Shown here piece by piece: positions 3,997 to 34,428 of a stretch of DNA of 34,428 nt (its first letter is position 1; each line of letters starts with the position of its first letter). The stretch comes from Opitutaceae bacterium (GTDB lineage: Bacteria > Verrucomicrobiota > Verrucomicrobiia > Opitutales > Opitutaceae). Position numbers and translations under genes: made by a program. Where the stretch lies: NCBI GenBank assembly GCA_023269565.1, contig JAHFTD010000017.1:1-34428 (forward strand), in the 5' to 3' direction. The notes under the pieces were generated by a model. That model worked only from the letters and a program-made list of their open reading frames with translations. It had not been told where the DNA came from and searched no databases.

Positions 3997-4007
3997 GCGT
4001 GCTCACT
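3992..4007. terminator. Dyad bridging two convergent stop codons
   Basis: AGTGAGC and GCTCACT form a perfect inverted repeat with a 2-nt centre, and can fold as a 6-bp stem with a CGTG tetraloop in RNA from either strand. It contains the stop codons of both convergent genes (TGA at 3994-3996 and, on the minus strand, at 4003-4005). No long T tract follows, so it is at best a weak bidirectional terminator. Confidence 0.4.
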
Positions 4008-6243: not shown

Positions 6244-6284
6244 GTCGCGCTCTCTTTGCACACCGCCCGGCCGGTAGTGCCGGG

Positions 6285-6452
6285 TTCGTAAACAGATTAC
6301 GTGAATCGTTGCCCGATGGGCAGCCAGAAATTCAGCAGGCCAGCGCAATAAACGCGCAGACTTTTTCGAAAAAATCAGCTGGCCAGCCGCAAAAAATATG
6401 CGGCTAAGCATTGTGCCCGCATGGGCCAGCTTTCTGGCCCGTGTTTTTATTT
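6285..6452 (+). ncRNA. Candidate small RNA ending at the orphan terminator
   Basis: Inferred only: the + strand terminator at 6423-6452 has no coding sequence upstream, yet the bases before it are rich in complementary arms (GCCC-GAT-GGGC at 6311-6321, GCTGGCCAGC at 6378-6387, and AGCCGCA paired with TGCGGCT at 6385-6405). These would give a compact, structured RNA of 100-170 nt. I cannot fix the 5' end and see no strong promoter. No known RNA family is recognised. Confidence 0.25.
6423..6452 (+). terminator. Orphan rho-independent terminator
   Basis: Perfect 7-bp arms GGGCCAG (6423-6429) and CTGGCCC (6434-6440) enclose the tetraloop CTTT and are followed by GTGTTTTTATTT. This is a textbook intrinsic terminator for + strand transcripts. 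No + strand gene lies between it and the SulP gene, whose transcription runs the other way. It may end a small RNA, or shield the repeat array and the downstream gene from read-through. Confidence 0.7.
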
Positions 6453-13010: not shown

Positions 13011-13027
13011 AAAAGATGGCAGGTTGA

Positions 13028-14032
13028 TCAGGTTTTGCTCTCGGCCTGGAGCGCGATCGCGATGGCGCCGTAGCTGCCGATGGTTTCACCCAGCTTGGCC
13101 GGCAGGATCCGGCAAGCCGCGAGGGAGTGGGGCAGGGCTTCACGGGCCAGCGTCTTCCGCATGGCCGGATCGAGCAGCCTGCGGCAATGGGGATAGAAGC
13201 CGCCGATCACGATCCGCTCGGGATTCAACAGGTCGATAATGAAGGCGAGGGCCTCGCCGAGGCGCCGGCCCGCCTCGCCCATGATCGCGCGGGCGAGCGG
13301 ATCGCCGTCCTTGGCCGCATCGGCGATCTGGCGCGTCGTGGTTTTTCCATTGGGGGAATACCACACGGGTGGGGACCTGACCTGCTGGCGCACGCAGGAT
13401 TCGGCGAGCCGGGCGATGCCGCCGCCGCTGCAAAAGCCCTCGAAGGACCCGGCTTTGCCGAAGCCCATGGGCCCGTCGACGGCGAGGCGCAGGTGGCCGA
13501 CCTCGCCGGCGTCGCCGCTGGCGCCTACATAGAGACGGCCGTTCAATATAACCCCGGCGCCCATGCCGGTGCCCGAGGTGAGGAAAACCATGTGCCGGCA
13601 GCCGCGGCCTGCGCCGAATCGCCACTCGGCGAGCGCACATGCGTTCGCATCGTTCATGAGAAAGGCCCGGCCGCCGAATTTTTTCACCAGGCGCCGGCAG
13701 ATCTCCACGCCGTGCCAGCTGCGCGCGAGGTTGGGCGGCGAAAGGATCACGCCCCGCGTGGCGTCGAGCGGCCCGCCGCACGAGATGCCGAAGACGGGGT
13801 TCGCCGGCATCACGCGGGCGGCGGCCTTGGTCAGCGCCGCAAATGTCGTCGCAAAATCGCCCGTGGGCACGCGGATGATCTCCTCGAGGACGCCGTGCCG
13901 CACGCGGCTGGCCGCGCACTTGGTCCCGCCGATGTCGAAGCCGATGATTTCTTCCGGACCTTCACTGGCGAGACCGGGTGGGAGACTTCGTCCCTGACCC
14001 CGGGCCGGTTGAGGCAGGGAAGGCAGCTTCAT
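13028..14032 (-). CDS. ROK-family protein lacking the usual zinc cysteines
   Basis: The 334-residue protein has the ROK (repressor, ORF, kinase) fold. It shows IIGFDIGGTKCA (ATP phosphate loop, 29-40), catalytic Asp128 in LMNDANACA, TSGTGMGAGV (152-161) and GDAGEVGHLRL with His180. No DNA-binding domain precedes it, so it should be a sugar kinase rather than a repressor. The zinc motif C-CG--GC-E is absent: the aligned segment (189-198) is MGFGKAGSFE, with the three Cys replaced by Met, Phe and Ser. The ATG at 14032 leaves about 27 extra polar residues before the fold. The frame extends further upstream without similarity. It is followed 17 bp on by the SIS gene. The substrate is unknown. Confidence 0.87.
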   Translation of the reverse strand: MKLPSLPQPARGQGRSLPPGLASEGPEEIIGFDIGGTKCAASRVRHGVLEEIIRVPTGDFATTFAALTKAAARVMPANPVFGISCGGPLDATRGVILSPPNLARSWHGVEICRRLVKKFGGRAFLMNDANACALAEWRFGAGRGCRHMVFLTSGTGMGAGVILNGRLYVGASGDAGEVGHLRLAVDGPMGFGKAGSFEGFCSGGGIARLAESCVRQQVRSPPVWYSPNGKTTTRQIADAAKDGDPLARAIMGEAGRRLGEALAFIIDLLNPERIVIGGFYPHCRRLLDPAMRKTLAREALPHSLAACRILPAKLGETIGSYGAIAIALQAESKT

Positions 14033-19518: not shown

Positions 19519-20136
19519 CTACTCGTCGAGCAACAGCGCCAGCTGCCGGCCGGGCCCATGCACGCCTTCGATCAGGATGCCTTCGACATCTGCTGTCTTG
19601 GATGGCCCCGTGACCCAGATGACATTGGGATCCGCTGGCAGCACCGCAAGCGCGGCGGAGATATCCGCGTGAATCTGGCTGCGGCCCAGCACGGCCACAT
19701 GCACCCATGGTGCCAGGGCCGCGAGACGGGAGGAGGTGCCGGCGTCCGTCAGGATCAAGGTGCCCGTTTCCGCGATGGCTCCGCTGGCGGCCGTGATACC
19801 GAAATCAAAGTCGTCCACCCGGGCGCGGTCGAAGATGGTCTCCACCGTAAAATTTACCGGGAAGGCCGCTTGCAACCGGGGCCAGAGCGCGGGGTCGCAG
19901 TAGCCGCGGCGCCAGCCGTGTTGCTCCAGCAGCGCGACCAGGCCCGCCGCAGAATCCAGCGGGGTGCCGTTCACAGCCGTCAATTGTCCGGCGAAGGTGG
20001 CCCACAAATCGGTGGCTGGCTGCGGCGAGCGGTGGCGGACGAGCGTCTGCTCCCACTCTGGCAGTGGAGCGCGCTGCGGCAGGGGCGCAAGGGCCGAGCG
20101 CACCCGGGCGAGGATCTGGTCGCGTGCGGAGTTCAT
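19519..20136 (-). CDS. lutC: L-lactate utilisation protein LutC (LUD domain)
   Basis: The 205-residue product is the LUD-domain subunit of the LutABC iron-sulfur L-lactate oxidation system. Recognisable parts are the helical start MNSARDQILARVRSAL, the segment FDFGITAASGAIAETGTLIL and the C-terminal IWVTGPSKTADVEGILIEGVHGP, which is diagnostic. LutABC oxidises L-lactate to pyruvate in the cytoplasm. The ATG at 20136 overlaps the lutB stop (ATGA, 20133-20136), so translation is coupled; the longer frame to 20592 runs antiphase through lutB and is not real. It is the last gene of the rha-lut operon. Confidence 0.95.
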   Translation of the reverse strand: MNSARDQILARVRSALAPLPQRAPLPEWEQTLVRHRSPQPATDLWATFAGQLTAVNGTPLDSAAGLVALLEQHGWRRGYCDPALWPRLQAAFPVNFTVETIFDRARVDDFDFGITAASGAIAETGTLILTDAGTSSRLAALAPWVHVAVLGRSQIHADISAALAVLPADPNVIWVTGPSKTADVEGILIEGVHGPGRQLALLLDE

Positions 20137-21527
20137 GCCTTGTTGCGACGTTTCAGCCAGCGGCGGAACTCGCCCCCCCGCCACCCCGGAAGGGTTCGTT
20201 TCTGCGCCCAGGCCTGGAGCGCGGGGAGGGGCAGTAGTTTGGTCGGCAGAAAGTCGAGCGCCTTGCCGCCCAGGAGCGCCGCCTTCCACGCCAGGGGTTG
20301 CGAGGCCAGCAGTGCCCATGCGCCCATCGACGGCGTGCCAGCGGCGGCGAGCAGCGCGCCCGCGGCCTTGCCCTTCGCGCGGAGGCGCAGCAGTAGGTCC
20401 GGGATCGGGATGTCGACCGGGCAGACCTCGTGGCAAGCGCCGCAGAGTGATGAGGCCTTGGGGAGGTCGGCGAACTCGGGGAACTTGTCTCCGGCCAGTA
20501 GGGGCGTGAGCACGGCTCCGAGCGGTCCGGGGTAAACGCTGCGATAGGCGTGGCCGCTGACCTGCCGATAGACCGGGCAGACATTCAGGCACGCGCCGCA
20601 GCGGATGCAGCGCAGGATCTCGCGGCAGTCGGAGGCCAGTGCGGCGGTGCGGCCGTTGTCGACGAAGATCACATGCATCTCCTCCGGGCCGTCGGGCTGC
20701 GCGGCGGCCTTGGGTCCTGCGATGAACTCGGTATAGACGGTGAGCTGCTGTGCCGTGGCCGAGCGGGCCAGCAGATTAAGCAGCAGGCCGAGATCGCGGT
20801 CGCGCGGCACGAGCTTCTCGAGGCCGACGAGAGCGATGTGGCAGCGCGGCGCCGCGAGGCAGAAGCGGGAGTTACCCTCGTTGGTGACAACGACGAGGCG
20901 GCCGCTTTCGACAGAAAGGAAATTCGCGCCAGTGAGGCCGACATCGGCCTGGAGGTATTTGTGCCGGAGAAACTGCCGGGCCCGGCGGGTGATGATCGTC
21001 GGGTCGTCGTTGTATGGGCCGAGCCCGTGACGTTCGAAGCTCCGCGCGATTTCACGGCGGTTCTTGTGGATGATCGGGCGGACGATGTGGCTGGGGTGGT
21101 CGCCGTCGATCTGCACGATGAATTCGCCGAGGTCGGTTTCGAGCGCCTCGATCCCATGGCGGGCCAGGAAGGCGGCAAGGCCGATCTCCTCGCTGACCAT
21201 GGTCTTGGCCTTGACCATTTTGGTGGCGCCGCGCGCCTGCATGATGCGAAGCACGGCGGTGCAGGCGTCGTCAGCCGTGGCGGCCCAGTGCACCTGCGCG
21301 CCATTAGCTTGGAGCCGGGCTTCGGCGGCGGGCAGCATGCGGTCGAGATTCTCAATGACGTGCTGCTTGATGCCGCCGGCGATCCGTCGCAGCTCGTCCG
21401 GGTCGGCAAACTGGTCGTAAAGCAGCCGGGTGCGCTTCTCGTGCGTGGCCTTGGTGCTCTGGTAAACCGCGGCGCGCGTGTCGGCGGGAAGGCCGGCCGA
21501 AAAGGCATCGAGGGGCTGGCGGGGCAT
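20133..21527 (-). CDS. lutB: L-lactate utilisation iron-sulfur protein LutB
   Basis: The 464-residue protein joins an N-terminal LUD-type domain (about 60-300, with TKMVKAKTMVSEEIGLAAF and VGLTGANFLSVESGRLVVV) to two [4Fe-4S] ferredoxin-type motifs: CIRCGACLNVCPVY (Cys307, 310, 313, 317) and CGACHEVCPVDIP (Cys362, 365, 369). A C-terminal DUF3390-like tail follows. It forms the electron-transfer core of LutABC. The ATG at 21527 shares one base with the lutA stop (TGATG), and its own stop overlaps lutC. The open frame upstream to 21758 is antiphase with lutA and is ignored. All expected cluster ligands are present. Confidence 0.96.
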   Translation of the reverse strand: MPRQPLDAFSAGLPADTRAAVYQSTKATHEKRTRLLYDQFADPDELRRIAGGIKQHVIENLDRMLPAAEARLQANGAQVHWAATADDACTAVLRIMQARGATKMVKAKTMVSEEIGLAAFLARHGIEALETDLGEFIVQIDGDHPSHIVRPIIHKNRREIARSFERHGLGPYNDDPTIITRRARQFLRHKYLQADVGLTGANFLSVESGRLVVVTNEGNSRFCLAAPRCHIALVGLEKLVPRDRDLGLLLNLLARSATAQQLTVYTEFIAGPKAAAQPDGPEEMHVIFVDNGRTAALASDCREILRCIRCGACLNVCPVYRQVSGHAYRSVYPGPLGAVLTPLLAGDKFPEFADLPKASSLCGACHEVCPVDIPIPDLLLRLRAKGKAAGALLAAAGTPSMGAWALLASQPLAWKAALLGGKALDFLPTKLLPLPALQAWAQKRTLPGWRGGEFRRWLKRRNKA

Positions 21528-22303
21528 CAGAGCAGCCCCCCTTGCCTGAGCGCATCGCGGAGAATCTGCGCGAAGTGCCGGGTCGGGAGCGGCGTCCCCT
21601 GCTTTTCCGCCAGCCCGCCGAGATGCATGAGGCAGCTCATGTCGGTCGAGACGAGCACGTCGGGCTGTGCGGCCCGGATGTGCTCCAGCTTGAGCGTGCC
21701 TATGCCGGCTGAAACGTTCGGGAAGCCGACGGCGAAGGTGCCGCCGAAGCCGCAGCATTGCTCGGCCTCGCCCACGGCAACGAGCCGGAGGCCGGCGATG
21801 GAGCCGAGCAGCCGGGTGGCAGCCTCGGTGGAGGCGGTGCCACGCGTGTGGCAGGCTCGATGGAAGGCGACGGTGGCCTCGTAGCGGCCGGGCCAGGCCG
21901 TCACCCCGAGTCCATGGACGATGAACTCGGCCAATTCCCAGGTGCGGGCGCCGAGCGCCTGCACAGCCGGCCGGTCGGACTCGTTTTCAAATTCCAGGGG
22001 CGCGCCATGGCGCAGCATTGCGGCGCACGAACCGGAAGGCACGACGACGGGGAGGTCGCCGTCGAAAGTGAGGACGGTGTGCCGCACGACGCGGCGCGAG
22101 GCCGGCCAGTCGCCGCTGTTGAACGCCGGCTGGCCACAGCAGGTCTGGCCCTCGGGAAACTCCACCACGCAACCAAGGTGTTCGAGCACTTCGACCGTTG
22201 CGCGTGCTAGGTCGTCGTAGAATGCGTCGCAGAGGCAAGTCGCCAACAATTGCACCCGCCATGGTGCGCCGGATGGGAACGGACTCGGGCGGACGGGGTT
22301 CAT
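21527..22303 (-). CDS. lutA: L-lactate utilisation protein LutA (CCG-domain protein)
   Basis: The 258-residue protein has the two CCG (cysteine-rich) domains of LutA / heterodisulfide-reductase-like subunits: QTCCGQPAFNSGD (Cys55-56) and EQCCGFGGTFAVGFP (Cys183-184), each with an accompanying Cys (CLCDAFYD near 23-25 and AFHRACHTRG at 151). These motifs bind an iron-sulfur cluster or handle electrons during L-lactate oxidation. The ATG at 22303 overlaps the rhaB stop (ATGA, 22300-22303), so lutABC is translationally coupled to the rhamnose genes. The N-terminus is about 12 residues longer than in well-known LutA proteins. Confidence 0.95.
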   Translation of the reverse strand: MNPVRPSPFPSGAPWRVQLLATCLCDAFYDDLARATVEVLEHLGCVVEFPEGQTCCGQPAFNSGDWPASRRVVRHTVLTFDGDLPVVVPSGSCAAMLRHGAPLEFENESDRPAVQALGARTWELAEFIVHGLGVTAWPGRYEATVAFHRACHTRGTASTEAATRLLGSIAGLRLVAVGEAEQCCGFGGTFAVGFPNVSAGIGTLKLEHIRAAQPDVLVSTDMSCLMHLGGLAEKQGTPLPTRHFAQILRDALRQGGLL

Positions 22304-23724
22304 GACCGGGGGTGCGGCCGGTAAATGGTGGCGGTGAGGCGTTGGGCGAAATCCGCGCGGAAAGCCCGGAGGCTGGGGACTGCGCCTAGGCCGACGAGCT
22401 GGTTGGCAAGATTGCCGACAGCCGTGCCCTCGAGTTGCAAGGCATGGACCGGCAGGCCCGTGGCCTCGGCAGTGGCCTGACACAGCAGGGCGTTCTTTGC
22501 CCCGCCGCCGACCATGAGGATGCGGCGGAACCGGCGCCCGGTGAGCCGCGAGAAGATCCGCGCACCCTCGGCGTGGCTGCGGGCGAGGGAAGCGCAGATG
22601 AGCCGGACATAACCGGGCAGCGTGCGCGGCGGCCGGCTTTCTCGGCGCAGCAGTTGCGCGTCGATCGCCGTGCGCATGTCGGGCGGGTTGAATAGCGCGG
22701 AGTCGGAGACGTCGAGCAGCATGCGCGGAGCGGGGGCGGCGGTAGCGGCGGCGATGAGCCGCCGCCAGCCAGCGCGGTCGTGCGGTCGTGTGCGAAAGGC
22801 CGGCAGCGTCTGCTCGAGCAGCCACAGGCCGAGGCAACTGCGGAGGGGGCGGTAGCGACCGTCCCCCATGCGCTCGTTGGAGATCTTGAGCTCGCGGGCC
22901 TCCTCGCCGAGGACCGGCCGGTCGCTTTCGCAGCCGAGCAGCGACCAGGTGCCGGTGCTGAGATAGAGGTCGCCGCCGGCGGGATCGGCCGGCATGGCGG
23001 CGAACGCGCAGGCAGTATCGTGGCCGGGGACCGCAATCACCTGCACTTGCTCAAAACCCGGCAGACCGCGGACAGGGCCGAGCCGTGCCGGCGAGTGGAG
23101 GGGCCGGCTGAACCAGCGGGCCGGCACGCCGAAATGAGCGAGCGCTGCGCGCGACCAGTTGTCTTTGTGCACGTCGAGCAACTGGGAATGGCTGCAGATG
23201 GAGATTTCGTTTTCCATCCGTCCTGAGAGGAGAAAGTTGAAATAATCGGGCAGGAACAGGCAGCGGGCGGCGAGGCGGGTGAGAGTGGGGAAGCGGCCCA
23301 GCACTTCCTGGAGCTGGAGACTGGAGTTGTAGGGATAGTCGGGCAGGCCGGTCAGCGCGTAGATGCGCCGGTAGGCACCGCGGCGCAGGCGCGCGACCAG
23401 CGGGGCGGTGCGTGTGTCGCGATAGGCGTGGACGGGGAAGACCAGCCGTCCGGTTCGGTCGACCAGCGCATAATCCACGCCCCAGGTGCAGACGCCGACC
23501 GAGGTGAGTTTTCCTCCGGCCGCATCCCGGGCGCGGGCGAGACCGGTGCGCACCTCGGCCCAAAGGCCGGCGAGGTCCCAGTAATCGTGGCCGCCGAGGG
23601 AGTGGAAGGCGTTGGGAAAGCGGTGAACTTCGCGTAGCGTGAGACGGCGCCTTGCCCAAGTGCCGAGGATCACGCGACCGCTGGTCGCGCCCAGGTCGAC
23701 GGCGGCGCAGTGGAAGGGCTTCAT
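22300..23724 (-). CDS. rhaB: Rhamnulokinase
   Basis: The 474-residue protein is an FGGY-family kinase that phosphorylates L-rhamnulose to L-rhamnulose 1-phosphate. The ATP-binding start AAVDLGATSGRVILG (7-21) is characteristic of RhaB, as are HDYWDLAGLWAEV, CTWGVDYALVDRTGRLV and VPGHDTACAFAAMP. The C-terminal MVGGGAKNALLCQATAEATGL is the conserved second nucleotide-binding segment. The length is normal for rhamnulokinases. It begins one base past the stop of the aldolase/dehydrogenase gene and overlaps lutA by 4 bp, so it sits in the middle of a tight operon. The identity is supported both by motifs and by rhaA next door. Confidence 0.95.
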   Translation of the reverse strand: MKPFHCAAVDLGATSGRVILGTWARRRLTLREVHRFPNAFHSLGGHDYWDLAGLWAEVRTGLARARDAAGGKLTSVGVCTWGVDYALVDRTGRLVFPVHAYRDTRTAPLVARLRRGAYRRIYALTGLPDYPYNSSLQLQEVLGRFPTLTRLAARCLFLPDYFNFLLSGRMENEISICSHSQLLDVHKDNWSRAALAHFGVPARWFSRPLHSPARLGPVRGLPGFEQVQVIAVPGHDTACAFAAMPADPAGGDLYLSTGTWSLLGCESDRPVLGEEARELKISNERMGDGRYRPLRSCLGLWLLEQTLPAFRTRPHDRAGWRRLIAAATAAPAPRMLLDVSDSALFNPPDMRTAIDAQLLRRESRPPRTLPGYVRLICASLARSHAEGARIFSRLTGRRFRRILMVGGGAKNALLCQATAEATGLPVHALQLEGTAVGNLANQLVGLGAVPSLRAFRADFAQRLTATIYRPHPRS

Positions 23725-23725
23725 G

Positions 23726-25918
23726 CTAGCGCAGGAACGCTTCCGTCAGGCCGCCGTCCACGGCGAGAATCTGGCCGGTGGTCTTGCGGAGGCGCGGAGA
23801 GATGAGCAGGAAATACGCCTCGGCCTGATCGGCGGGCGTGATGGGAGACTTGGTGAGGGTGCGGTCGGCGTAGAACTGCGCGAGCTTACGCACGAGCGAC
23901 TCGGTGGACTCGGCACCGGCATGGGCGATGTGATATTTGGCGAGCGAACCAAGGACGCGCTCGCGCGGGAACATCGCGGAGCCCTGCACGACGGTCGCGG
24001 GCGCGACGCCGTTCACGCGCACGAGCGGGGCGAGCTCGATAGCAAGCTCGCGCACCAGATGGCTGGCGGCGGCCTTGGAGGTGTCGTAGGCGACGGAACC
24101 CCTCTTCGCCACGACAGCATTGGCCGAGGTTGTGAGAACGAGCTGGCCCGGGAGGCCTTGCTCCTGCCAGGTCTTGAAGGCCTCGTCGGCCACGAGATAA
24201 CTGCCGGTGATGTTGACGTTGAAGGTGAACGCCCATTTGTCGTCGGGGATGCGTCCGGTGGCGTCGCTCGGCCAGAACACACCGGCGGTGACACAGATGG
24301 AGTCGAAGCCGCCATAGGCGAGCGCGACATTGTCGAGCATGGTGCGCAGGCTCGCGCGGCTTGTGATGTCGCAGGCGAGGCCGAGGGCCGGGCCGCAGTT
24401 GGACAGGCCGGAACCGGCGACGCCGATACCCATGCCGTATTTACCGATGATTTCCGCGGCGGTTGTCTGCGCGGCCGCGAGGTCCAGATCGACACAGACG
24501 ACGTGCGCGCCTTCACGGGCGAGGCGGTGGGCGGTCTCCCGGCCGATGCCCGAGCCGGCGCCGATGACGATGACAACTTGGCGCGCAAGCTCCTTTTCGG
24601 CGGGCATGCGCCGCAGTTTTGCCTCCTCGAGGAGCCAGTATTCGATGTCGAACGCCTCCCGCTGGGGGAGTGCGATATAACGGTCGAGGGCCTCGGCGCC
24701 GCGCATGACCTCGATGGCGCAGCCGTAGAACTCGGCGGTGACGCGGGATTCGGATTTGTCCTTGCCCCAGGCGATCAGGCCGAGGCCAGGGATGAGCATG
24801 ACGGTCGGGTTGGGGTCGCGCATGGCGGGCGAGTCGGCCCGACGGCAGGAAGTATAATAGGCGGCGTAGTCAGTGCGGTAGGCCTCGAGCCCGGCAGCGA
24901 GGGCGGCTTTGAGCGCGGCCAGATCCTGCGTCTGCGGGTCCCATTCGACGTAAAGTGGCTTGATCTTGGTGCGGAGGAAGTGGTCGGGGCAGGAAGTGCC
25001 GAGCGCGGCTAGACGAGCGGCATCCTGCGAGTTGACGAAGCGGGTGGTTGGCGGGTCGTCAAGGATGGTGCCAATGAAGCGCTTTTCGCCCGAGACCCGG
25101 CCGCGAATCCAGGGGAGGACCGCCGCGAACATCGCCCGGCGCTCAGCGTCACCGAGCGACCGGTATTTCGGGCCGCCGAACGCGGTGGCGTCGCCACCCC
25201 GGGCGGCGTATTGTTTTTCGATGCAGGCGGCGGCCCGCTCGATGCAGTCGAGGGTGAGGGTGTAGCACTGACGGTCGTCGTCGGCCCAAGAGATGAAACC
25301 GTGTTGCCCCATCATGATGGCGCGGAGGCTCGGATGGGTCTGAGCGATCCGCTGCATGGCCAGACCGAGTTCGAAGCCCGGGCGCATCCACGGCACATAG
25401 GCCATATCACCGCCGAAGATCTCGCGTGTCAGTCGCTCGCAGCCGGCGGAGGCGGCGATGGCGATGATGGCGTTCGGGTGCATGTGGTCGACGTGCCGGC
25501 CGGGGAGGAAGGCGTGCAGCGGCGTGTCGATCGACGAGGCCCGGGGGTTGAGATTGAAGGTGGTGTGCGCATACATCGCGACCATGGCGTCCTCGGCGGA
25601 GGACTTGAGATTCTGGTCCGGGCGCGCGGCGTAGAGTTGCCGGAGGTCGAGGAGCTTTTGTTGGCAGAGGGAGGCGAAGTTTTCGCGGGTGCTGGTGCGT
25701 AGGTCCCCGCCCGAGCCTTTGACCCAGAGGACCTCGACCGGCCGGCCGGTGAGTGGATCCATTTCGGTGAGCTTGGAGGAGGTGTTGCCACCGCCAGTGT
25801 TGGTGATGCGCTGATCGCTGCCGAGCAGATTAGAGCGATAGACTAGGCGCGCCACGGGATCGAGGGCGGCGGCGTGGCCGTCATCCCATAGATAATTAAC
25901 GTGACGGTAGGCGGACAT
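23726..25918 (-). CDS. Bifunctional rhamnulose-1-phosphate aldolase / short-chain dehydrogenase
   Basis: The 730-residue fusion has two halves. Residues about 20-400 are a class II (zinc) aldolase: ITNTGGGNTSSK (38-49), the metal-binding HVDHMHPNAII (His145, His147) and His206 in MMGQHGFISW. It should split L-rhamnulose 1-phosphate into dihydroxyacetone phosphate and L-lactaldehyde. Residues about 445-730 are a classical SDR with GAGSGIG (453-459) and Tyr611/Lys615 in YDTSKAAASH, thought from related RhaEW-type proteins to oxidise L-lactaldehyde to L-lactate. The ATG at 25918 is chosen because homologues begin shortly before the HVNYLWDD segment. It follows rhaA by 7 bp and precedes rhaB by one. 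The fused name rhaEW is used for such proteins in other bacteria. Confidence 0.93.
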   Translation of the reverse strand: MSAYRHVNYLWDDGHAAALDPVARLVYRSNLLGSDQRITNTGGGNTSSKLTEMDPLTGRPVEVLWVKGSGGDLRTSTRENFASLCQQKLLDLRQLYAARPDQNLKSSAEDAMVAMYAHTTFNLNPRASSIDTPLHAFLPGRHVDHMHPNAIIAIAASAGCERLTREIFGGDMAYVPWMRPGFELGLAMQRIAQTHPSLRAIMMGQHGFISWADDDRQCYTLTLDCIERAAACIEKQYAARGGDATAFGGPKYRSLGDAERRAMFAAVLPWIRGRVSGEKRFIGTILDDPPTTRFVNSQDAARLAALGTSCPDHFLRTKIKPLYVEWDPQTQDLAALKAALAAGLEAYRTDYAAYYTSCRRADSPAMRDPNPTVMLIPGLGLIAWGKDKSESRVTAEFYGCAIEVMRGAEALDRYIALPQREAFDIEYWLLEEAKLRRMPAEKELARQVVIVIGAGSGIGRETAHRLAREGAHVVCVDLDLAAAQTTAAEIIGKYGMGIGVAGSGLSNCGPALGLACDITSRASLRTMLDNVALAYGGFDSICVTAGVFWPSDATGRIPDDKWAFTFNVNITGSYLVADEAFKTWQEQGLPGQLVLTTSANAVVAKRGSVAYDTSKAAASHLVRELAIELAPLVRVNGVAPATVVQGSAMFPRERVLGSLAKYHIAHAGAESTESLVRKLAQFYADRTLTKSPITPADQAEAYFLLISPRLRKTTGQILAVDGGLTEAFLR

Positions 25919-25925
25919 GGAGGGA

Positions 25926-27182
25926 TCAGCGGCGGAGGGAGAGGACCTCGCGTTCGTAGCGTTGGATTTCGGGGAGCCAAGAACGGTCGGACGGGGTGTT
26001 GGTGCGCTGGCAATGCTCGTCCCAAACGGCGCCGAACGGCAAGGTTTTGCTTTCTTCCAGCAGGGCGAGACGGCCGGTGTGGTCGCCGGAAGCCTCAAGT
26101 GCGCGAAGTTGCGTGGTGGGTTCAAGCAGGGCGACCAGCAGGCATTTCTGGGTGTTGCGGGTGCCTAGCACCCAGGCGGCGACGCGGTTGATGCTGGCGT
26201 CGAAATAGTCGAGTCCGATGTGCGTGCGCGGCAGATGGCCGCCGCGCACGATCTCCTCGAAGAGCGAGCGGGTCGGGTCGTCGAACAGGACCACATGGTC
26301 GCTGTCCCAGCGGACACCACGGCTGACATGCAGCAGCAGCCCGGGGACGAACTGGAGCACGGAGGAGACCTTGTCCGCCACCGACTCCGTCGGATGGAAG
26401 TGCCCCATGTCGAGGCAAAGCAGCTTCTGCCGCGTGATGGCGTATCCGAGGTAGAACTCGTGTGAGCCCACGACAAAGCTTTCGGAGCCGATGCCGAAGA
26501 GCTTGCTTTCGACGGCGTCGAGATGATGCGCGGGATCAAGCAGCTCCCGGAACGCCGCATCGAGCGCGGTCGCCAGGCGCTCGCGCGGGCCATGGCGGTC
26601 GGCAGGCAGGTCCTTGCATCCGTCGGGAATCCAGACGTTGGTCACGGTCGGTGAACCCAGGGCGCGGCCCATGACAGCCCCGATGCGGCGACAGGCGATG
26701 ACGTGCTCGATCCAGTATTGCCGCACGGCGGGGTCGCGATGTGAGAGCGTGAAGCCATCTGCCGCCAGCGAGTGGGCGAAGCAGGTCGGGTTGAAATCGA
26801 GGCCCAGGCCGCGGGCCCGGGCCCAGTCGATCCAAGAGGAGAAATGCTCCGGGCCGATGGCGCAGCGCTCAACCTGGCGGCCGCCGAAGTCGCCGTAGAT
26901 GGCGTGCAGATTGACACGGTGCCGGCCGGGAATAAGGCGGAGGGCGACGTCGAGGTCGGCGCGGAGCTCATCGATGGAGCGCGCTTTGCCGGGATAATTA
27001 CCGGTGGCTTGGATGCCGGCACCGTCGAGCGTGGCACCGGTCGATTCGAATCCGCCAACATCATCGCCCTGCCAGCAATGCAGAGAAATGGGTGTGGCGG
27101 CGAGAGTGGCGAGCGCACCCTCGGGGTCGACCCCGAGGGCGGCGTAATCCTCGAGGGCGGATTGGTAGGAGTGGTGATGCAT
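25926..27182 (-). CDS. rhaA: L-rhamnose isomerase
   Basis: The 418-residue protein converts L-rhamnose to L-rhamnulose. It matches the E. coli RhaA type along its whole length: [78 protein letters not shown], and the metal-site residues His261, Asp293 and Asp295 in CLDMGHFHP and RWDSDHVV (one residue offset from the E. coli numbering). The C-terminal ending EVLSLRR also fits. It is the first gene of the rha-lut operon, divergent from an AraC regulator across 106 bp that must hold the promoter. The N-terminal HHH is natural sequence. Confidence 0.97.
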
Positions 27183-27288: not shown

Positions 27289-28188
27289 ATGAGACAAGAT
27301 AAGCGTAGGCCGGACTATCAGCGCTACCTCGCGAGCACACCCGAGGCGGAGGCCTGGGGTGTGGCGGTAGCTGCGGGCGGACGGCAAGCCATAGCACCGG
27401 GCGAGACGTATCCGCCGCCGCACCATCCGGCTGATCACATGTTCCGTTGGGAAACGGGCCGCGTGCTGGGCGCCTGCCAGATCGTGTTCATCACGGCGGG
27501 CCGAGGGTTGTTTGAGTCGCATGAAACGGGCTTGGTGGAGGTCGCGGCCGGCATGGCGTTGGTGATTCTGCCCGGGGTCTGGCACCGCTACGCGCCCGAT
27601 CCGGCCACGGGCTGGACGGAGCAGTGGGTTGAACTACAGGGATCCGTCGTCGGACGGCTGGTCAGGCAAGGCGTGCTGACTCCGCACCGCGCGGTAGTGC
27701 CGGTGGGGCGCGTGCTTGAGGTTGAGCGGTTGATGGAGACCGTGCACGCGCGGCTGCTGCACGAGGCGGCGACGGGTCTCGATCCGGAACGCGCGGCGGT
27801 GGGCCTGCAGGTGTTGGCGATCGTGACGGGCACTACGCGGGAGGGTGCGGCGGCGCGCCCGCTGGCGTCCGTGATCGCCCGTGCCGAGCGCCGGCTAACC
27901 GAGTCGGCCGACCGGCCGCCGGACATGCCGGCACTGGCCCGGGAGCTTGGGCTGGCCTACTCCCTTTTCCGGCGCGAATTCAAACGGCACACCGGGCTGG
28001 CCCCCTACCAATATGTGCAGCAGCTCCGCCTCGAGAAGGCACGCCGCCTGATCGGCAACACCAACGAGAGTCTCAAGGTGATCGCGGAGCAGCTCGGCTT
28101 TGCGTCGGCCTACCATCTCTCCGCCGCTTTCAAGGGACGCTACGGGGAAGCGCCGGCGCACTGGCGCCGGCGACGGCATCCACGCTGA
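27289..28188 (+). CDS. AraC-family regulator, probably of rhamnose catabolism
   Basis: The 299-residue protein has an N-terminal cupin-like sugar-sensing domain (about 40-150, with HMFRWETGR, FITAGRGLFES and ILPGVWHRYAPD) and a C-terminal AraC double helix-turn-helix (about 200-296). The first HTH reads LARELGLAYSLFRREFKRH and the second IAEQLGFASAYHLSAAFKG, followed by the usual FxxxxGxxPxxWR end. It diverges from rhaA with 106 bp between them, the classical layout for a rhamnose activator. Its stop codon directly abuts the stop of the convergent glycoside hydrolase gene. No Shine-Dalgarno precedes the ATG; a -10-like TACAAT just upstream would even allow a leaderless mRNA. Confidence 0.92.
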   Translation: MRQDKRRPDYQRYLASTPEAEAWGVAVAAGGRQAIAPGETYPPPHHPADHMFRWETGRVLGACQIVFITAGRGLFESHETGLVEVAAGMALVILPGVWHRYAPDPATGWTEQWVELQGSVVGRLVRQGVLTPHRAVVPVGRVLEVERLMETVHARLLHEAATGLDPERAAVGLQVLAIVTGTTREGAAARPLASVIARAERRLTESADRPPDMPALARELGLAYSLFRREFKRHTGLAPYQYVQQLRLEKARRLIGNTNESLKVIAEQLGFASAYHLSAAFKGRYGEAPAHWRRRRHPR

Positions 28189-30378
28189 TCAATCCAGCAA
28201 CACGAGGCCCGTGGCCGCATCAAGCACGGTGGTGCTTCGGGCCGGCAACGCGAGGTGGACGGACCGGCCACCCGGCAGGGAGAGGGTGCGCGGGCCGCCC
28301 GTCAAAGTGTGAATCATCAGCAGTCCGTCGCCGAGCAGGGTCGCGTCATCGTGATCATTGATGATGTGGCAGCCGGCGCGGCGGGCGAGCGCGCGGAGCA
28401 CGGGCGGCTCGACGGGGGCGACGGCGAATGTCCACCACGTGGCCTGCCCGTCGTGGCGCCAGGCCGCGCTGATGCTCCCGTCCTTCCAGCGGCCGGCCAC
28501 CCGGTCCGCCGGAGCCTCATAGGCGGGCACGTGCTTTGGCGGTTCCAAGACCTGTTCCTCGGTCGCGCCGTCGAGAACGAGCGAGGATGTCGGAACCATG
28601 GCGTTGCATCCCGACGTCGGGATGCCGCTGAGGGCGGCGGCCAGGTGGGCACCGATCTCGCGGCGATTGCCCCAGCCGGCGTAGCCGGTCAGCACGAGAT
28701 GGCGCCCGCCGAGTGCGAGCCGGTTGCGGATGAAATCACGATGGGTGTCGTCGAGCACCGGGGTGGTGCCGAACAGGACGAACCGGTAGGGCGACAGATC
28801 CATCCCGGGCAGTTCGGAGAGCAGGGCCTCGTCGAATACGAGGCCAGAGTGGTAGAGGCCTTCGAGAAGTCCGTCCATGCCGCGGGCGGAAAACGGGTCG
28901 GGTCCGACGGGCGGCTGGTCGCCGAACTTGAAACCTTCGAGCGACCAGCGTCGTGCCACGGTGTGGCAGAACGACCAGGGATCGTGCACCACCAGTGTGT
29001 CCGCCGGCCGGACGAACGGCCGGTCGTGCCGGGAACGGGCGAGGGCTTGCAGGGCGGCGATCTCACAGGCGAGCCGCGGATCGTCCCACCAACCGACATT
29101 GCCGTGAGTGGCGAAATTGGGCGTGCCGGCGACCATGCCGAAATCATACCACCACTGGCCGCCGCCCCGCAGGACGGGCTGGAGGGTGTTCCGGCGCAGG
29201 TAGGCGATGTCGTCCGCCGGAGATGACTGGAATTTCCGGTCCCACGGACAGCCGACGAGGGAGGAGCCGTGGTCATTCTCATCGAGCCAGAGTTTGCCGG
29301 CGCGGCGCACGCTCCCGAGAATTCCGCGCGCATGGCCGGAGCCGCCCATGGCACGAACGCGCTCGGTGTAGGATTGCGGTGAGCAGAGGCAATCGAGGTG
29401 AGGGGACGCCAAAACCCGGTCGAGTGCGAGGTGGCTGCCGGCGGCATTCCGGCCGAACTGGCCGTAGAAATAGCCTTGAAACGCGGCGGTGACCACGGGA
29501 CGCGGCCATGAGGCCTTGACCGTGGCCGCCAGCCCGAGCAGCGCGTCGGTCATGGTTTCATGCAACCAAGTGAAGTAGTCGATGATGTCCTGCTGGGTGC
29601 GCGGATCCCGCAGAGGACCGCAAGCCGCGTGCTCGCGGGCGGGGGAGCCGGGGGCCGACACGGCGTCGAGGCGTGCCTGTGGCTGCTGCCACGCATGGGC
29701 CAGGCCGGGGTCATCGCCGTAGCGTGCGCGCAGCCACGCACGGAAAGAGCGCGTGGCTGCCCCGCCGGTGTCGGGGTCGTGATGCAGGAAGCCGAACTGG
29801 TGCCATTCGCCGTAGAGACCGTTTGCCAACTGCAGGGAAAAGACGGCGCCGCCTTCCGGCGTGGCCGCCAGTTCGCGGCAGAATTCGCGCAGGCGGGCGT
29901 CGGCCCATTGCCGCCACGGCAGCGAGGCGAAGCTGGCGCGGACGGGCCGGGCGCCATCGGCGGCGACCGGTCGTTGCAGGCCCCAGGTCGCCGGTTCCTC
30001 CGGCGTGGTGTCGGCGTAGCCCACGCATTCCCCGGGATGCAGCGCGCACCAGGCGGCGGGGGCGTTCACATGCAGGCGGAGCATCACGGCGGCGTCGGGG
30101 CACTGGGCGAGGACGCCGGCGATTTGCCGGCGGGCGAGGGTGAGATCGAGGCGGTCGTCCTCGCCAAGCATTTGCTCGAACCAGATGTCGGCTTGAAATA
30201 GTCGCACGCCCTGCCGGGCGAACAGCCGGATGTTGCGCGCGGGCACTTCCTCCCAAGTCCAGCGCGCGCCCGGGCAATCTGACAGCGCGTAGAGGAGTGG
30301 CGCATGCGGCACCCCATTGAGGAGCAGGGTGGGCCGGTTGGCGCGCATCTCAACCGAGGCGGAGAGGGGCCGGTTCAT
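28189..30378 (-). CDS. Putative clan GH-A glycoside hydrolase, beta-galactosidase (GH42)-like
   Basis: I recognise no exact family for this 729-residue protein, but the architecture resembles GH42-type enzymes. Residues about 15-420 look like a TIM barrel with two candidate catalytic Glu: Glu191 in LANGLYGEWHQFGF after a strand, and Glu367 in KLWLDENDHGSS. About 440-600 resembles the amidotransferase-like trimerisation domain of GH42 (DTLVVHDPWSFCHTVARRW, then YRFVLFGTTPVLDDTHRDFI). A small beta domain closes the chain (SLPGGRSVHLALPARSTTVLD). No signal peptide is seen, so it should act on imported oligosaccharides. The ATG at 30378 overlaps the preceding small gene by 4 bp. It is the last gene of a five-gene operon. 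The substrate is unknown. Confidence 0.75.
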   Translation of the reverse strand: MNRPLSASVEMRANRPTLLLNGVPHAPLLYALSDCPGARWTWEEVPARNIRLFARQGVRLFQADIWFEQMLGEDDRLDLTLARRQIAGVLAQCPDAAVMLRLHVNAPAAWCALHPGECVGYADTTPEEPATWGLQRPVAADGARPVRASFASLPWRQWADARLREFCRELAATPEGGAVFSLQLANGLYGEWHQFGFLHHDPDTGGAATRSFRAWLRARYGDDPGLAHAWQQPQARLDAVSAPGSPAREHAACGPLRDPRTQQDIIDYFTWLHETMTDALLGLAATVKASWPRPVVTAAFQGYFYGQFGRNAAGSHLALDRVLASPHLDCLCSPQSYTERVRAMGGSGHARGILGSVRRAGKLWLDENDHGSSLVGCPWDRKFQSSPADDIAYLRRNTLQPVLRGGGQWWYDFGMVAGTPNFATHGNVGWWDDPRLACEIAALQALARSRHDRPFVRPADTLVVHDPWSFCHTVARRWSLEGFKFGDQPPVGPDPFSARGMDGLLEGLYHSGLVFDEALLSELPGMDLSPYRFVLFGTTPVLDDTHRDFIRNRLALGGRHLVLTGYAGWGNRREIGAHLAAALSGIPTSGCNAMVPTSSLVLDGATEEQVLEPPKHVPAYEAPADRVAGRWKDGSISAAWRHDGQATWWTFAVAPVEPPVLRALARRAGCHIINDHDDATLLGDGLLMIHTLTGGPRTLSLPGGRSVHLALPARSTTVLDAATGLVLLD

Positions 30379-30650
30379 CGGTGGCAGGGGTCGCAGGCCG
30401 GATGCACCCCGCGGGCATCCACATCAAACAGTGCGCCGTGGTGAGGGATGTTGATGAGAGCGGCCTGCGGGTTGAAGCAGCCGAGCCAGGGCGGGGCGCC
30501 TTCCCGCGGGGAATAAGTGGCATTCCAACCGTTGACCGAGCGGATCACACCTTCGCCGGTAAGAATCCGGAGCCGGGCCGCGCGAGGTGCGGAGTCCGTA
30601 TTGGTGAGGCGGAGCGCGGGGGTGAACATGAGGCGGGGGTCGCCGCTCAA
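30375..30650 (-). CDS. Small protein of unknown function, coupled to both neighbours
   Basis: The 91-residue frame starts at TTG 30650, which shares TTGA with the stop of the M20 gene, and ends in ATGA with the start of the glycoside hydrolase gene. An ATG at 30629 would give 84 residues. The product has no signal peptide or membrane segment and reads like a beta-rich piece (RLRILTGEGVIRSVNGWNAT, then INIPHHGALFDVDARG), ending HPACDPCHR with two Cys. I do not recognise it. Tight overlap on both sides and codon use like its neighbours argue that it is translated. It may be a true small subunit or a remnant of a larger accessory domain. Confidence 0.55.
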   Translation of the reverse strand: MSGDPRLMFTPALRLTNTDSAPRAARLRILTGEGVIRSVNGWNATYSPREGAPPWLGCFNPQAALINIPHHGALFDVDARGVHPACDPCHR

Positions 30651-31795
30651 GGGGTGAGCCGGAGGATTTTAGAGTAAAGTTCGACGGCCCGGTTCAGCTC
30701 GGCGCGGGATAGCCATTCATCGTGTGTGTGGGCCTGGGCGATGTCGCCGGGCCCCAGCACGAGCACCGGGGCGCCGGCGGCGGCGTAGTGGCTGGCATCG
30801 GTGGCGTAAGGCACCCCGGTGGCGGTAGGATCGAGACTGGCGGCGGTGAAGGCGGGCTGCAGCCACGCGAGCAAGGCGGCGGAGCTGCCCGGCGGCAGCG
30901 GAGGCGCGAGGTAGAGGCTGTCGTGCTCGACCGCAAGGCCGGCGAGGGCCGCATCGCGCTGGGCGAGCACGGTGTCGGGCGACTCGCCCGGAACGAGCCG
31001 GCGGTCGCAGCTGATCTCGCAGTAGTCCGGGATGATGTTCACGGCGGAGCCGCCGTGGATGACGTTGATGCTCGCGGCCGCCCTGCCGGTGAGCGGAAAC
31101 ACACGGTTCGCGAGCGGAATGAATTTTTCCTCAAGCGCCGCGATGACCGCGAGCATGGCACCGATCGCCGAGCGGCCCTTGGACGGATCGGCGGAGTGGG
31201 CGGAGATACCGCGCGTGATCGTTTTCCAGCGCAGAGAGCCGTTGTGGGCTACGACCGGCCGGAGGCCGGTGGGCTCGCCGACGATGAGGCCGCGCAGGCG
31301 GGGCAGGAATTCCCGGAGCCCGCCGCCGGCGAACGCCTGTGCGCCGGACATCCGTGCCTCCTCGTCGATTGCGAAGAGGACGCCGGCGTTGCGTGTGCGG
31401 CGCGGGTCGCAGGAAAAGTCGCGGAGGGCCCAGAACATGGCGGCGCCGGAGCCCTTCGTGTCACAAGCGCCCCGGCCATGGAGTCGGTCGCCTTTGGGTG
31501 TGAGCCGGAACGGTGGCACGGTCATGCCTTCGACCCCGACGGTGTCGAGGTGGCTTTCGAAGAGCAGCCACTCGGCACTGGGTGCGACCTCGCTGGAGAT
31601 CAGAAGATTAAAGGCATCACCGTCGACCGGGTCGCGGCGACTGGACAGGCCCCACTGCGCGGCAAGTTGCTCAAGGTGCGCGGCCAGCCTCGCCTCGCCA
31701 CCGGCCGACCCACCGTAATGGAGGTTCACAGTCTCGAAGGAGATCATCTGAGCGAGCAGTTCCTCGCAGGAGGACGGTGGCGGCAGGGAGGGCAT
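30647..31795 (-). CDS. M20-family peptidase/deacylase (ArgE/DapE-like)
   Basis: The 382-residue protein is a metal-dependent amidohydrolase of the M20 family, which includes acetylornithine deacetylase and succinyl-diaminopimelate desuccinylase. The zinc ligands and catalytic residues are evident: His82 and Asp84 in FESHLDTVGV, Asp112 in GRGACDTKGSG, Glu145-Glu146 in FAIDEEARMSG, and a late His in GPGDIAQAHTHDEW. The dimerisation domain lies between (ISAHSADPSKGRSAI). It is the third gene of an operon with a DapA-like lyase, which invites a role in removing an acyl or amino-acid group from a sugar or amino acid derivative. The substrate is not known. Confidence 0.9.
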   Translation of the reverse strand: MPSLPPPSSCEELLAQMISFETVNLHYGGSAGGEARLAAHLEQLAAQWGLSSRRDPVDGDAFNLLISSEVAPSAEWLLFESHLDTVGVEGMTVPPFRLTPKGDRLHGRGACDTKGSGAAMFWALRDFSCDPRRTRNAGVLFAIDEEARMSGAQAFAGGGLREFLPRLRGLIVGEPTGLRPVVAHNGSLRWKTITRGISAHSADPSKGRSAIGAMLAVIAALEEKFIPLANRVFPLTGRAAASINVIHGGSAVNIIPDYCEISCDRRLVPGESPDTVLAQRDAALAGLAVEHDSLYLAPPLPPGSSAALLAWLQPAFTAASLDPTATGVPYATDASHYAAAGAPVLVLGPGDIAQAHTHDEWLSRAELNRAVELYSKILRLTP

Positions 31796-31797
31796 GG

Positions 31798-32844
31798 CTA
31801 GCGCAGCCAGTGGTCGCGATGCTCGGCGACAAAGGAGTCGTCCGTCAGCTCCGGGTAGGCGGTGCAGACGCGGGTTAGTTCCTCCGCCTGCCCGGGAGAG
31901 AGCACTTCGGCGGGATTGAGGCAGTGGACCGAGGTGACAAGACCCTGGCGGCGTAGCACCTCCAGGATGCCGGGGATGCAGCCGCGGAAATGGTTGGCGG
32001 CGTCAAAGAGAGTGGCGTTCATGTCCGTGACTGCGGTGGCGCGCGCCAGCCACGAGGCGTCGATTTGGGGCTGGGCTGCGGCGCCCTGGAGCTCACGGAA
32101 GAGTTCTACGGCGGAGTGTGTCCACACGCCCCAGTGCCCGAGCAGGCCGCCGACGATGCGACGGGTCACTGGCCGGCCGCCGGTGTCGAAGGTAAAAGGC
32201 GAAAGTAGGTCGGTGACGATGGTGTCGTCGTTGCCAGTGTAGAGGGCGATGTCGTCACGGCCGGCGGCGGTGACGGCGCGGACCACATCGATGGTCTGGT
32301 AGCGGTTGAACGGTGCGATCTTGATCGCAACGATGCCGGGAATCTCGGCGAAGCGCCGCCAAAAGCCATGGCTGAGCACGCGCCCGCCGACGGCGGGTTG
32401 CAGATAAAAGCCCACGACGGGGATGGTTAGTGCGACGGTGGCGACATGGGCGAGGATGGCCTCCTCCGGTTCGGTCTGAAACGCCGCCATGCTGACCAAC
32501 CCCGCGTGGTAGCCCAGCGAGCAGGCCAGCTCCGCCTCGGCGACGGCTTGCGCGGTCTGGCCGCAGACGCCCGCGATCAGCGCGTAATCGCGCGGTGCGG
32601 CGCGCAGCTCGTCGGCAATGGTCGCGGCAGCGAGTTCGAGGACTGGCTTGAAGAGATTGTGCCGGGGATCGCGGATTTCGAACTGCGTGGAGTGCACGCC
32701 GACCGCGATGCCGCCAGTGCCGGCCGAGAAGTAATAGCGGGCGAGGGCGCGCTGGTGCTTTTCGGAAAAACGCCGCTGCGCGTCGAGGGCGAGCGGATGC
32801 GCCGGGATGACTTGGCCGGCGAGAAGATGGGAGCGAAGATTCAT
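31798..32844 (-). CDS. Dihydrodipicolinate synthase (DapA)-family lyase/aldolase
   Basis: The 348-residue protein belongs to the DapA / N-acetylneuraminate lyase superfamily of class I aldolases. The Schiff-base Lys is Lys175 in GIVAIKIAPFN and the conserved Tyr is Tyr147 in VVGFYLQPAVGG. The N-terminal GTGGIAVGVHSTQFEIRD fits the usual GT-G pattern in altered form. It is longer than classical DapA (about 290), with a C-terminal extension after residue 260. The context of an SDR, a deacylase and a glycoside hydrolase suggests cleavage of a sugar acid, not lysine synthesis. The ATG at 32844 begins two bases after the stop of the preceding gene; the frame upstream of it is antiphase and ignored. 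Confidence 0.88.
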   Translation of the reverse strand: MNLRSHLLAGQVIPAHPLALDAQRRFSEKHQRALARYYFSAGTGGIAVGVHSTQFEIRDPRHNLFKPVLELAAATIADELRAAPRDYALIAGVCGQTAQAVAEAELACSLGYHAGLVSMAAFQTEPEEAILAHVATVALTIPVVGFYLQPAVGGRVLSHGFWRRFAEIPGIVAIKIAPFNRYQTIDVVRAVTAAGRDDIALYTGNDDTIVTDLLSPFTFDTGGRPVTRRIVGGLLGHWGVWTHSAVELFRELQGAAAQPQIDASWLARATAVTDMNATLFDAANHFRGCIPGILEVLRRQGLVTSVHCLNPAEVLSPGQAEELTRVCTAYPELTDDSFVAEHRDHWLR

Positions 32845-32846
32845 GG

Positions 32847-33878
32847 TCAGAACTTCCCGCTGCGGGTTTCGAAGTGGGTGGGCTTGCCGAGCATCCGCCC
32901 GCCTTCCTGCAGGTAGCCGGTGATCAAATCCATCATGTCGGTCACAGCCATCTCCGGCGGTCCAAACAGCCGGATGGATTCGCTGGCGTCGGCGAGCCAG
33001 GTGTCCGGGGCCTCGGTGCCGGTGAGGTGCGGGGCGCGGCCAAGACGCCGGCCGAATTCCTCCGCGAGCGTGCGGATGCGGAGCTTTTCCGGGCCGGTGA
33101 TGTTGAGGATGCGCGGCGGGCTGGCGGTATGGGCGAGGCACTGGATGGCCCGCGCGCAGGCGTCACCCTGCCAGATGCAGTTGAGCCAGCCCATCGTGAG
33201 GTCCACCGGCGCGCCCTGCTGCACCTTGAGTGCGAGGTCGACGAGCACGCCGTAGCGGAGTTCCACCGAGTAGTTGAGCCGGTAGATCAGCTGCGGAGTG
33301 CCGAACTGCTGGGAAAAATACGTGAACACCCGCTCGCGGCCGACGCAGGTGCTGGCATATTCCCCGAGGAAGGTGACGGGTTCGCGCTCGTTCGCCCCCG
33401 GGCCGGTGACCGGCACGAACGGGTAGACGCAACCGGTCGAGAAGATGACGGTGCGGGAGTCGCGGAAACGCTGCGCCACGAACATTGGCACGACAGTGTT
33501 CTGGATCCACGTCAGCCCGGGCGCGCTGTCGGTGCCGAATTTCTGGCCGGCAAGGAAGAGCACATTGGTGGCGGCAGGCAGCGCCGCGACCTGCGCCGCA
33601 TCGGCGAGATCGCATGACAAGGTGCGGACCCCGAGCTCTTCCAGTTCGCTGCGCGCCTCGGTCCGGCTGAAGCGCGAGATGCCGGTGACGGTGGCGTCCT
33701 TGCGGCCGGCGGCATCGAGCGCGCGGCGCAGCATGACGGCGGTCGTGGTGCCCATCTTGCCGCCGACGCCCAGCACCATGAAATCGCCCGGCAGGCTGGC
33801 GACGGCCTTGGTGGCTCCCGGAGTGGGGGTCGATAGCAGCAGCTCGATCTCACGGTCAGTCCGGGGCAGGGAAGGCAT
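32847..33878 (-). CDS. NAD-dependent epimerase/dehydratase family protein (extended SDR)
   Basis: The 343-residue protein has an extended-SDR fold. The cofactor loop is MVLGVGGKMGTTTAVML (34-50). TVIFSTGCVYPF (143-154) gives the usual Ser/Thr region. Instead of YxxxK the active-site helix reads GEYASTCVGRERVF, with Tyr174 but Cys178 where Lys is expected and Arg181 a little further on. The chemistry may therefore differ, or Arg may replace Lys. The C-terminal half (LNITGPEKLRIRTLAEEFGRR) is typical of sugar epimerases/dehydratases. It heads the five-gene minus-strand operon and diverges from an amidohydrolase across about 100 bp. The substrate is unknown. Confidence 0.87.
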   Translation of the reverse strand: MPSLPRTDREIELLLSTPTPGATKAVASLPGDFMVLGVGGKMGTTTAVMLRRALDAAGRKDATVTGISRFSRTEARSELEELGVRTLSCDLADAAQVAALPAATNVLFLAGQKFGTDSAPGLTWIQNTVVPMFVAQRFRDSRTVIFSTGCVYPFVPVTGPGANEREPVTFLGEYASTCVGRERVFTYFSQQFGTPQLIYRLNYSVELRYGVLVDLALKVQQGAPVDLTMGWLNCIWQGDACARAIQCLAHTASPPRILNITGPEKLRIRTLAEEFGRRLGRAPHLTGTEAPDTWLADASESIRLFGPPEMAVTDMMDLITGYLQEGGRMLGKPTHFETRSGKF

Positions 33879-33979
33879 ATTATTCAGTGCAGACAGCTTC
33901 TTTGGTTGAGAGGATACTTGTCAGCACTATACCGCTCAAGCAATGTGCGTAAAGCCAAGCGCAATCACCCTGAAATTTC
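33879..33979. promoter_or_regulatory. Divergent spacer between the SDR operon and the amidohydrolase
   Basis: This 101-bp stretch must drive both directions. It holds an imperfect palindrome around 33946-33959's left neighbour, AGCACTATACCGCT (10 of 14 symmetric positions), flanked by CTTG and CAAG, that could be an operator. No convincing -35/-10 pair is seen on either strand. Confidence 0.25.
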
Positions 33980-34428
33980 ATGCGAGCCATCGATATCCAC
34001 ACACACCCCATTCTGCGGGACGACAAGCGTGGACGTGCCGGGGCGGATGAGCTGATCGCCCGGGCCCGGGTCCATGGCCTCAGGCACCTGGTGGCGCTCG
34101 GGGACGTGCTCGCCTACGGCCGTTCACCCACCGAGGAACAGCTGCGGAAAATCAACGACGACACTTTCTGGCTGATGCGGCGCTATCCCGATTTTGTCAC
34201 CGGTTTCTGTCACCTGAACCCGACGCTCGGCGAGCGCGCGGTCCGGCGGGAGACGGAGCGCTGTGTCGCGCGCGGTTTCCGCGGCTTGAAGCTCGAGATC
34301 GCCAACAACGCCCGCGACGCCTGCATGCGGCCGTTGATGAAGCTGGCGGTGCGGCACGGGCTGCCGCTCCTGCAACACGCGTGGAGCATGACCAAGATCA
34401 AGCAGCGCAGCTTTCACACCGACCCGGA
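33980..34428 (+). CDS. Amidohydrolase family protein (3' end outside window)
   Basis: The ATG at 33980 opens a frame that runs to the window end (149 codons), so the gene is cut by the edge. The start reads MRAIDIHTHPILRDDKRG, with the metal-binding His-X-His (DIHTHP) of TIM-barrel amidohydrolases. The stretch FVTGFCHLNPTLGERAVRRE, then CVARGFRGLKLEI and later LPLLQHAWSM, matches the Amidohydro_2 type (lactonase or decarboxylase-like). Members open sugar lactones or decarboxylate aromatic acids. Given the neighbouring sugar genes, a sugar lactonase is a reasonable guess. It diverges from the SDR-headed operon and may share its control. The remaining metal ligands lie outside the window. Confidence 0.88.
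   Translation, partial: MRAIDIHTHPILRDDKRGRAGADELIARARVHGLRHLVALGDVLAYGRSPTEEQLRKINDDTFWLMRRYPDFVTGFCHLNPTLGERAVRRETERCVARGFRGLKLEIANNARDACMRPLMKLAVRHGLPLLQHAWSMTKIKQRSFHTDP

Follow-up and report, generated by a model that had tools for sequence, protein, structure and literature searches.

What does a tightly packed run of genes near the end of a stretch of Opitutaceae DNA do, and is it a unit that other genomes share? The window analysed here, 34,428 nucleotides of a contig from an Opitutaceae metagenome-assembled genome (MAG) that is 84% complete, carries five open reading frames (ORFs) on the minus strand that an earlier note, made from the letters alone, had read as a coupled five-gene operon. 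In the direction of transcription they encode a 343-residue protein with an NAD-binding fold that resembles extended short-chain dehydrogenases/reductases (SDR; 32847–33878), a 348-residue divergent member of the dihydrodipicolinate synthase/N-acetylneuraminate lyase (DHDPS/NAL) superfamily (DapA-like; 31798–32844), a 382-residue M20 metallo-deacylase of the ArgE/DapE-like kind (30647–31795), a small ORF (30375–30650) of 91 residues from the TTG at 30650 or 84 from the ATG at 30629, and a 729-residue protein resembling glycoside hydrolase (GH) family 42, of clan GH-A type (28189–30378). Gaps of 2 bp separate SDR from DapA and DapA from M20, overlaps of 4 bp join the small ORF to M20 and to GH, and all five ORFs were found with the order, strand and spacing that the note had given. 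All the parts are of known kinds, but the literature searched yielded no described pathway that combines them, a negative that counts only weakly as evidence of absence.

SDR, DapA, M20 and GH, four of the five, belong to a real, repeatedly conserved bacterial operon. Relatives were sampled as 32 GH-encoding loci, extra regions from whole genomes and 40 phylum-wide regions around SDR or DapA genes, and their layouts were read from a tblastn table, ordinary gene calls having missed or mis-called genes at loci L031 and L145. The identical order SDR-DapA-M20-GH was present at seven other loci (L031, L033, L037, L038, L040, L044, L045); two further loci (L032, L034) are consistent with it but are cut by contig ends. 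M20 directly follows DapA in most Opitutaceae loci; in L142 and L143 one extra gene comes between them, which in L142 is Gfo/Idh-like. SDR-DapA-M20 occurs without GH at L134–L145. The divergence of the SDR, DapA and M20 proteins is correlated (tree correlation, r 0.78–0.93, with shared host ancestry uncorrected). The conserved unit is the SDR-DapA pair with M20 and two divergent amidohydrolases, to which GH has been added only in one Opitutaceae subgroup. The view of a coupled operon for catabolism, in which a lyase and a deacylase are combined with an unusual GH42-like protein, is supported. The prediction that all five genes would be found together elsewhere held for SDR-DapA-M20-GH and failed for the small ORF, which has no homologue in any of these operons, the two cut ones included. 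The five-gene framing is both too wide, as the small ORF is not a conserved member, and too narrow, as the SDR-DapA pair is widespread.

No homologue of the 91-residue ORF was seen in the related SDR-DapA-M20-GH operons, and it was rejected as a conserved operon gene on that ground. Residues 10–70 resemble part of a 696-residue protein in another Opitutaceae genome (48% identity, E 6.9e-11) that itself matches no Pfam family; the other, weak matches look like chance. Its GC content by codon position (0.67/0.58/0.77) is flatter than that of the neighbouring genes. From these comparisons the small ORF is probably a remnant or stray domain, not an operon component, although it may still be a real short gene because both 4-bp overlaps are intact. 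Related operons often carry a different gene here. In L031, L033, L034, L037, L040, L044 and L045, M20 and GH are separated by the gene for a protein of about 435 residues whose start looks, by eye, like a signal sequence; in L032 and L038 about 100 bp lie between the two. The same family also stands near otherwise arranged SDR-DapA genes, upstream in L143 (10455–11612) and about 2 kb downstream in L146 (12317–14719). It had no match elsewhere in the window's own MAG, as far as 84% completeness allows, and it seems to be a regular partner that this genome lacks. Its predicted structure (predicted local distance difference test, pLDDT, 64) gave no Foldseek match below E 0.6.

On the other side of the SDR gene, an intergenic region that probably holds promoters (33879–33979) separates the operon from a divergent, plus-strand amidohydrolase gene of PF04909 type, only the 5' part of which lies in the window (33980–34428). 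On the contig, this gene crosses a 10-N gap past the window end, and a second amidohydrolase gene comes next. Two amidohydrolases face the operon across 89–120 bp at 15 loci, often followed by a DegT aminotransferase gene. The suggestion that the divergent amidohydrolase belongs with the operon is borne out by this conserved partnership. A candidate element, TGACAAG, recurs in the shared intergenic region (minus strand, 33923–33917, found by eye in the alignment).

Beyond Opitutaceae, the first two genes travel together. Across 388 Verrucomicrobiota genomes, SDR was found in 96 and the DapA-like gene in 85, and every one of the 85 DapA-bearing genomes also had SDR, where 21 would be expected (hypergeometric p 5e-74, a value that overstates independence, as the sampled species share ancestry). 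At 76 of 86 DapA loci, SDR was encoded upstream in the same orientation, less than 400 bp away. The two genes were also found close together on plasmids of Aquisphaera, Paenibacillus, Mesobacillus, Streptomyces, Nitratireductor, Tistrella and Sulfitobacter, which span Planctomycetota, Bacillota, Actinomycetota and Alphaproteobacteria. Their order is reversed in Rhodococcus, and in haloarchaea SDR alone was found. SDR and the DapA-like protein are an uncharacterised, strongly linked two-enzyme pair of several bacterial phyla with only generic annotation. Among 116 scanned neighbours of SDR or DapA were TetR regulators (16), Gfo/Idh oxidoreductases (10), serine dehydratases of the beta family (5) and sugar-isomerase-like TIM barrels (4). 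The plasmid-borne pairs are accompanied by sugar ABC or tripartite transporters, Gfo/Idh and sugar-isomerase genes and GNAT acetyltransferases, and the Nitratireductor pair additionally by a mandelate-racemase-family gene.

Both members of the pair depart from textbook active sites. The SDR protein matched no Pfam family, and its family profile retrieved extended SDRs (6d2v, 3ehe). Like these enzymes (UDP-glucose 4-epimerase type; the TerB oxidoreductase 6d2v), it has the Rossmann GxGGKxG loop (G37xxG40KxG43), Ser147 and Tyr174, all invariant in 42 of 42 sequences. Unlike them, it reads YxxxC in place of YxxxK, the lysine position being Cys in 40 of the 42, Ala in one and Val in one, and Arg181-Glu182 is invariant. 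The DapA-like protein passes the PF00701 cut-off (4.1e-7; 29.4 bits against 22.1) but fails the NCBIfam dapA model (20 bits against 206). It shares with the class I aldolases of its superfamily (DapA, N-acetylneuraminate lyase, 2-keto-3-deoxy sugar-acid aldolases) the positions of the Schiff-base lysine, Lys175 (37/37), and of Tyr147 (35/37), as aligned with known DHDPS. In contrast to them, it is about 55 residues longer, has VH[ST]TQ in place of GTTGE (the GXXG substrate-recognition motif), and has Val or Ala at the position of DHDPS Arg138 (E. coli numbering). The roles assigned to these residues are those generally known for DHDPS (see also PMC9795676). Because Lys175 and Tyr147 are kept while GTTGE and Arg138 are lost, the protein probably acts as a DHDPS/NAL-type enzyme and is not DapA.

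The third gene matches the M20 family at 3e-31, with AcOrn-deacetyl as the best subfamily (3.5e-55), yet it scores only 187.5 bits against a curated cut-off of 297.7. As in ArgE/DapE deacylases, to which it is linked by a match to 7rsf (1.6e-29), all the expected metal ligands and the catalytic Glu145 are invariant (H82, D84, D112, E145, E146, E174 and H356 in 20/20), but it falls well under every curated ArgE/DapE cut-off listed.

The GH-like protein matched no family in Pfam or NCBIfam searches. Its family profile retrieved a GH42 chain (E 1.7e-9), and with its AlphaFold model (pLDDT 88.6, predicted template-modelling score 0.91) the best Foldseek matches were three-domain GH42-type enzymes (TM ~0.65, E ~1e-25, 10–15% identity). 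With GH42 beta-galactosidases, GH164 Bs164 and Op5Man5 it thus shares the three-domain fold and a glutamate at the end of beta7, Glu367, which lies in strand 363–368 at the nucleophile position and is invariant in 34 of 34 sequences. It differs from them in its low identity and in the absence of the Asn-Glu acid/base pair at the end of beta4, where N186-G187 or Y-G is found; an invariant Glu191-Trp192 follows a few residues later (Glu191 in 34). Opitutaceae already offer one known case of a GH42-like trimeric fold in a protein of another family, the GH5 enzyme Op5Man5 with its GH42-type trimer (PMC8233224). No signal peptide was apparent by eye, and a search of the plasmid collection with the GH-like protein gave no match. 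In one Verrucomicrobiota family (f16; L010–L012, L027–L030 and others), up to six or more GH-domain paralogues in frames of about 880–1000 residues occur per 2.2–2.7 Mb genome.

The order of the genes, their co-conservation, their predicted folds and the catalytic residues that they keep lead us to infer that this is a cytoplasmic catabolic operon of Opitutaceae, built on the SDR and DapA-like core and ending in a Schiff-base aldolase or dehydratase step, and we give this reading a probability of roughly 0.45. Under the proposed scheme, a glycoside or oligosaccharide fragment would be imported into the cell, where the GH42-like enzyme would take off a sugar and the M20 enzyme would cut an N-acyl (amide) bond. 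Ring opening, or hydrolysis of a lactone or amide, may then fall to the divergent amidohydrolases, and the SDR-fold enzyme would convert the product with bound NAD(P). Lys175 of the DapA-like protein would finally form a Schiff base with a 2-oxo acid, followed by cleavage, as in an aldolase, or dehydration. As substrate, a sugar acid or N-acylated amino sugar from a polysaccharide is the likeliest. The earlier note's proposal of acylated amino sugar or sugar acid breakdown is plausible. In oxidative sugar pathways, DHDPS/NAL-family aldolases or dehydratases act after a lactonase step (PMC9795676). The operon follows the same dehydrogenase-lactonase-DHDPS/NAL logic as the non-phosphorylative Weimberg and Dahms pathways (PMC9795676), but is without a sugar-acid dehydratase and adds M20 and GH.

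The Opitutaceae neighbourhood likewise suggests polysaccharide use. A heparinase II/III-type protein, an SSF symporter, a GxGYxYP protein or a TonB-type receptor is encoded nearby in L041–L044, L146 and L161, and in L161, from another family, the same heparinase-SSF-amidohydrolase group stands beside SDR-DapA. GxGYxYP proteins are described from polysaccharide utilisation loci (PMC4071793). No such degraders or importers were seen beside the operon in the window itself.

Several observations weigh against this assignment. Redox chemistry by the SDR protein is doubtful because the usual catalytic lysine is missing, and hydrolysis by the GH-like protein is uncertain because the canonical GH42 Asn-Glu motif is absent. 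The DapA-like profile is about equally distant from DHDPS and NAL and lacks a substrate-specific signature. At many loci GH is present by itself, so it may be accessory. In other lineages, the presence of serine dehydratase, aminotransferase, GNAT acetyltransferase and Rid genes close to the pair speaks for an amino-acid-like substrate. The probability is no higher because neighbours elsewhere fit either a sugar acid or such a substrate.

These nitrogen-related neighbours underlie the most probable of the alternatives, in which the core would act on an unusual amino acid: M20 would deacylate it, an aminotransferase or serine-dehydratase-type enzyme would remove the nitrogen, the DapA-like protein would cleave the resulting 2-oxo acid, and GH would merely free the compound from a glycoside. 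L163, L164 and L172 carry a serine dehydratase gene after DapA, and the five neighbours of that family were counted above; an aminotransferase adjoins the pair at L151 and DegT lies near it in Opitutaceae and Halomontanus, which also has a Rid protein; in Tistrella and Sulfitobacter, GNAT acetyltransferase genes separate SDR from DapA, and L150 has one too; and acetylornithine deacetylase models are the nearest to the operon M20. However, no nitrogen gene accompanies the pair everywhere, genes for sugar transport, Gfo/Idh proteins and isomerases are just as common there, and the Opitutaceae context is polysaccharide-like. We consider an amino acid substrate unlikely.

Somewhat more doubtful still is that the locus joins two independent units, an SDR-DapA-M20 module and an unrelated GH gained beside it in one Opitutaceae subgroup, which would share transcription and not substrate. 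GH homologues stand without any other operon gene at more than half of the 32 GH loci (some on short contigs), and the module stands without GH at the L134–L145 loci. Yet GH follows M20, with or without the 435-residue gene, at nine other loci, its divergence is correlated with that of M20 (r 0.64, shared ancestry uncorrected), and GH and M20 remain no more than 10 kb apart even in L041–L043, where neither SDR nor DapA was seen. A role of the DapA-like and M20 proteins as DapA and a DapE-like enzyme of lysine/diaminopimelate biosynthesis is very improbable and was rejected: the enzyme classes would fit (DapA, aminotransferase, DapE) and no canonical dapA is recognisable in the window's MAG, but canonical dapA scored above the curated cut-off in 11 of 11 better-assembled relatives searched, with and without the module, so that its absence here probably reflects incompleteness, and the module is patchy (85/388 genomes) and lacks DHDPS Arg138 and GTTGE.

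Other genes of the window were noted as well. An AraC gene (27289–28188, plus strand) is convergent with GH, ending next to the GH stop, and divergent from rhaA, and among NCBIfam models it is nearest to RhaS. As a regulator of the operon it was rejected on this orientation and similarity, and it probably regulates the rhamnose genes. These L-rhamnose utilisation genes (20133–27182, minus strand) comprise rhaA, a bifunctional aldolase/dehydrogenase RhaD, an FGGY kinase and lactate-utilisation-like LUD/CCG-domain genes. At 12396–14032 and 9678–10475, 14–20 kb from the operon, are a SIS-domain gene with an adjacent ROK kinase gene and a xylose-isomerase-like gene; homologues of all three directly follow GH in L037 (same genome as L064), and a SIS homologue also follows GH in L036. 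A single ORF at 4003–6411 combines sulfate-permease-family, STAS and cyclic-nucleotide-binding domains.

Taken more broadly, the SDR-DapA pair may be the core of an undescribed catabolic pathway over several bacterial phyla, its SDR being found also in haloarchaea, with a lysine-less SDR of unusual chemistry, a new DHDPS/NAL subfamily and a GH that founds a new clan GH-A family, a proposal that we hold only tentatively. Both the lost lysine of the SDR and the changed motifs of the lyase depart from textbook mechanisms in specific ways that can be tested. Knowing what the pair acts on would at once put names to two enzyme families and to a route of catabolism that Verrucomicrobiota share with Planctomycetota and others.

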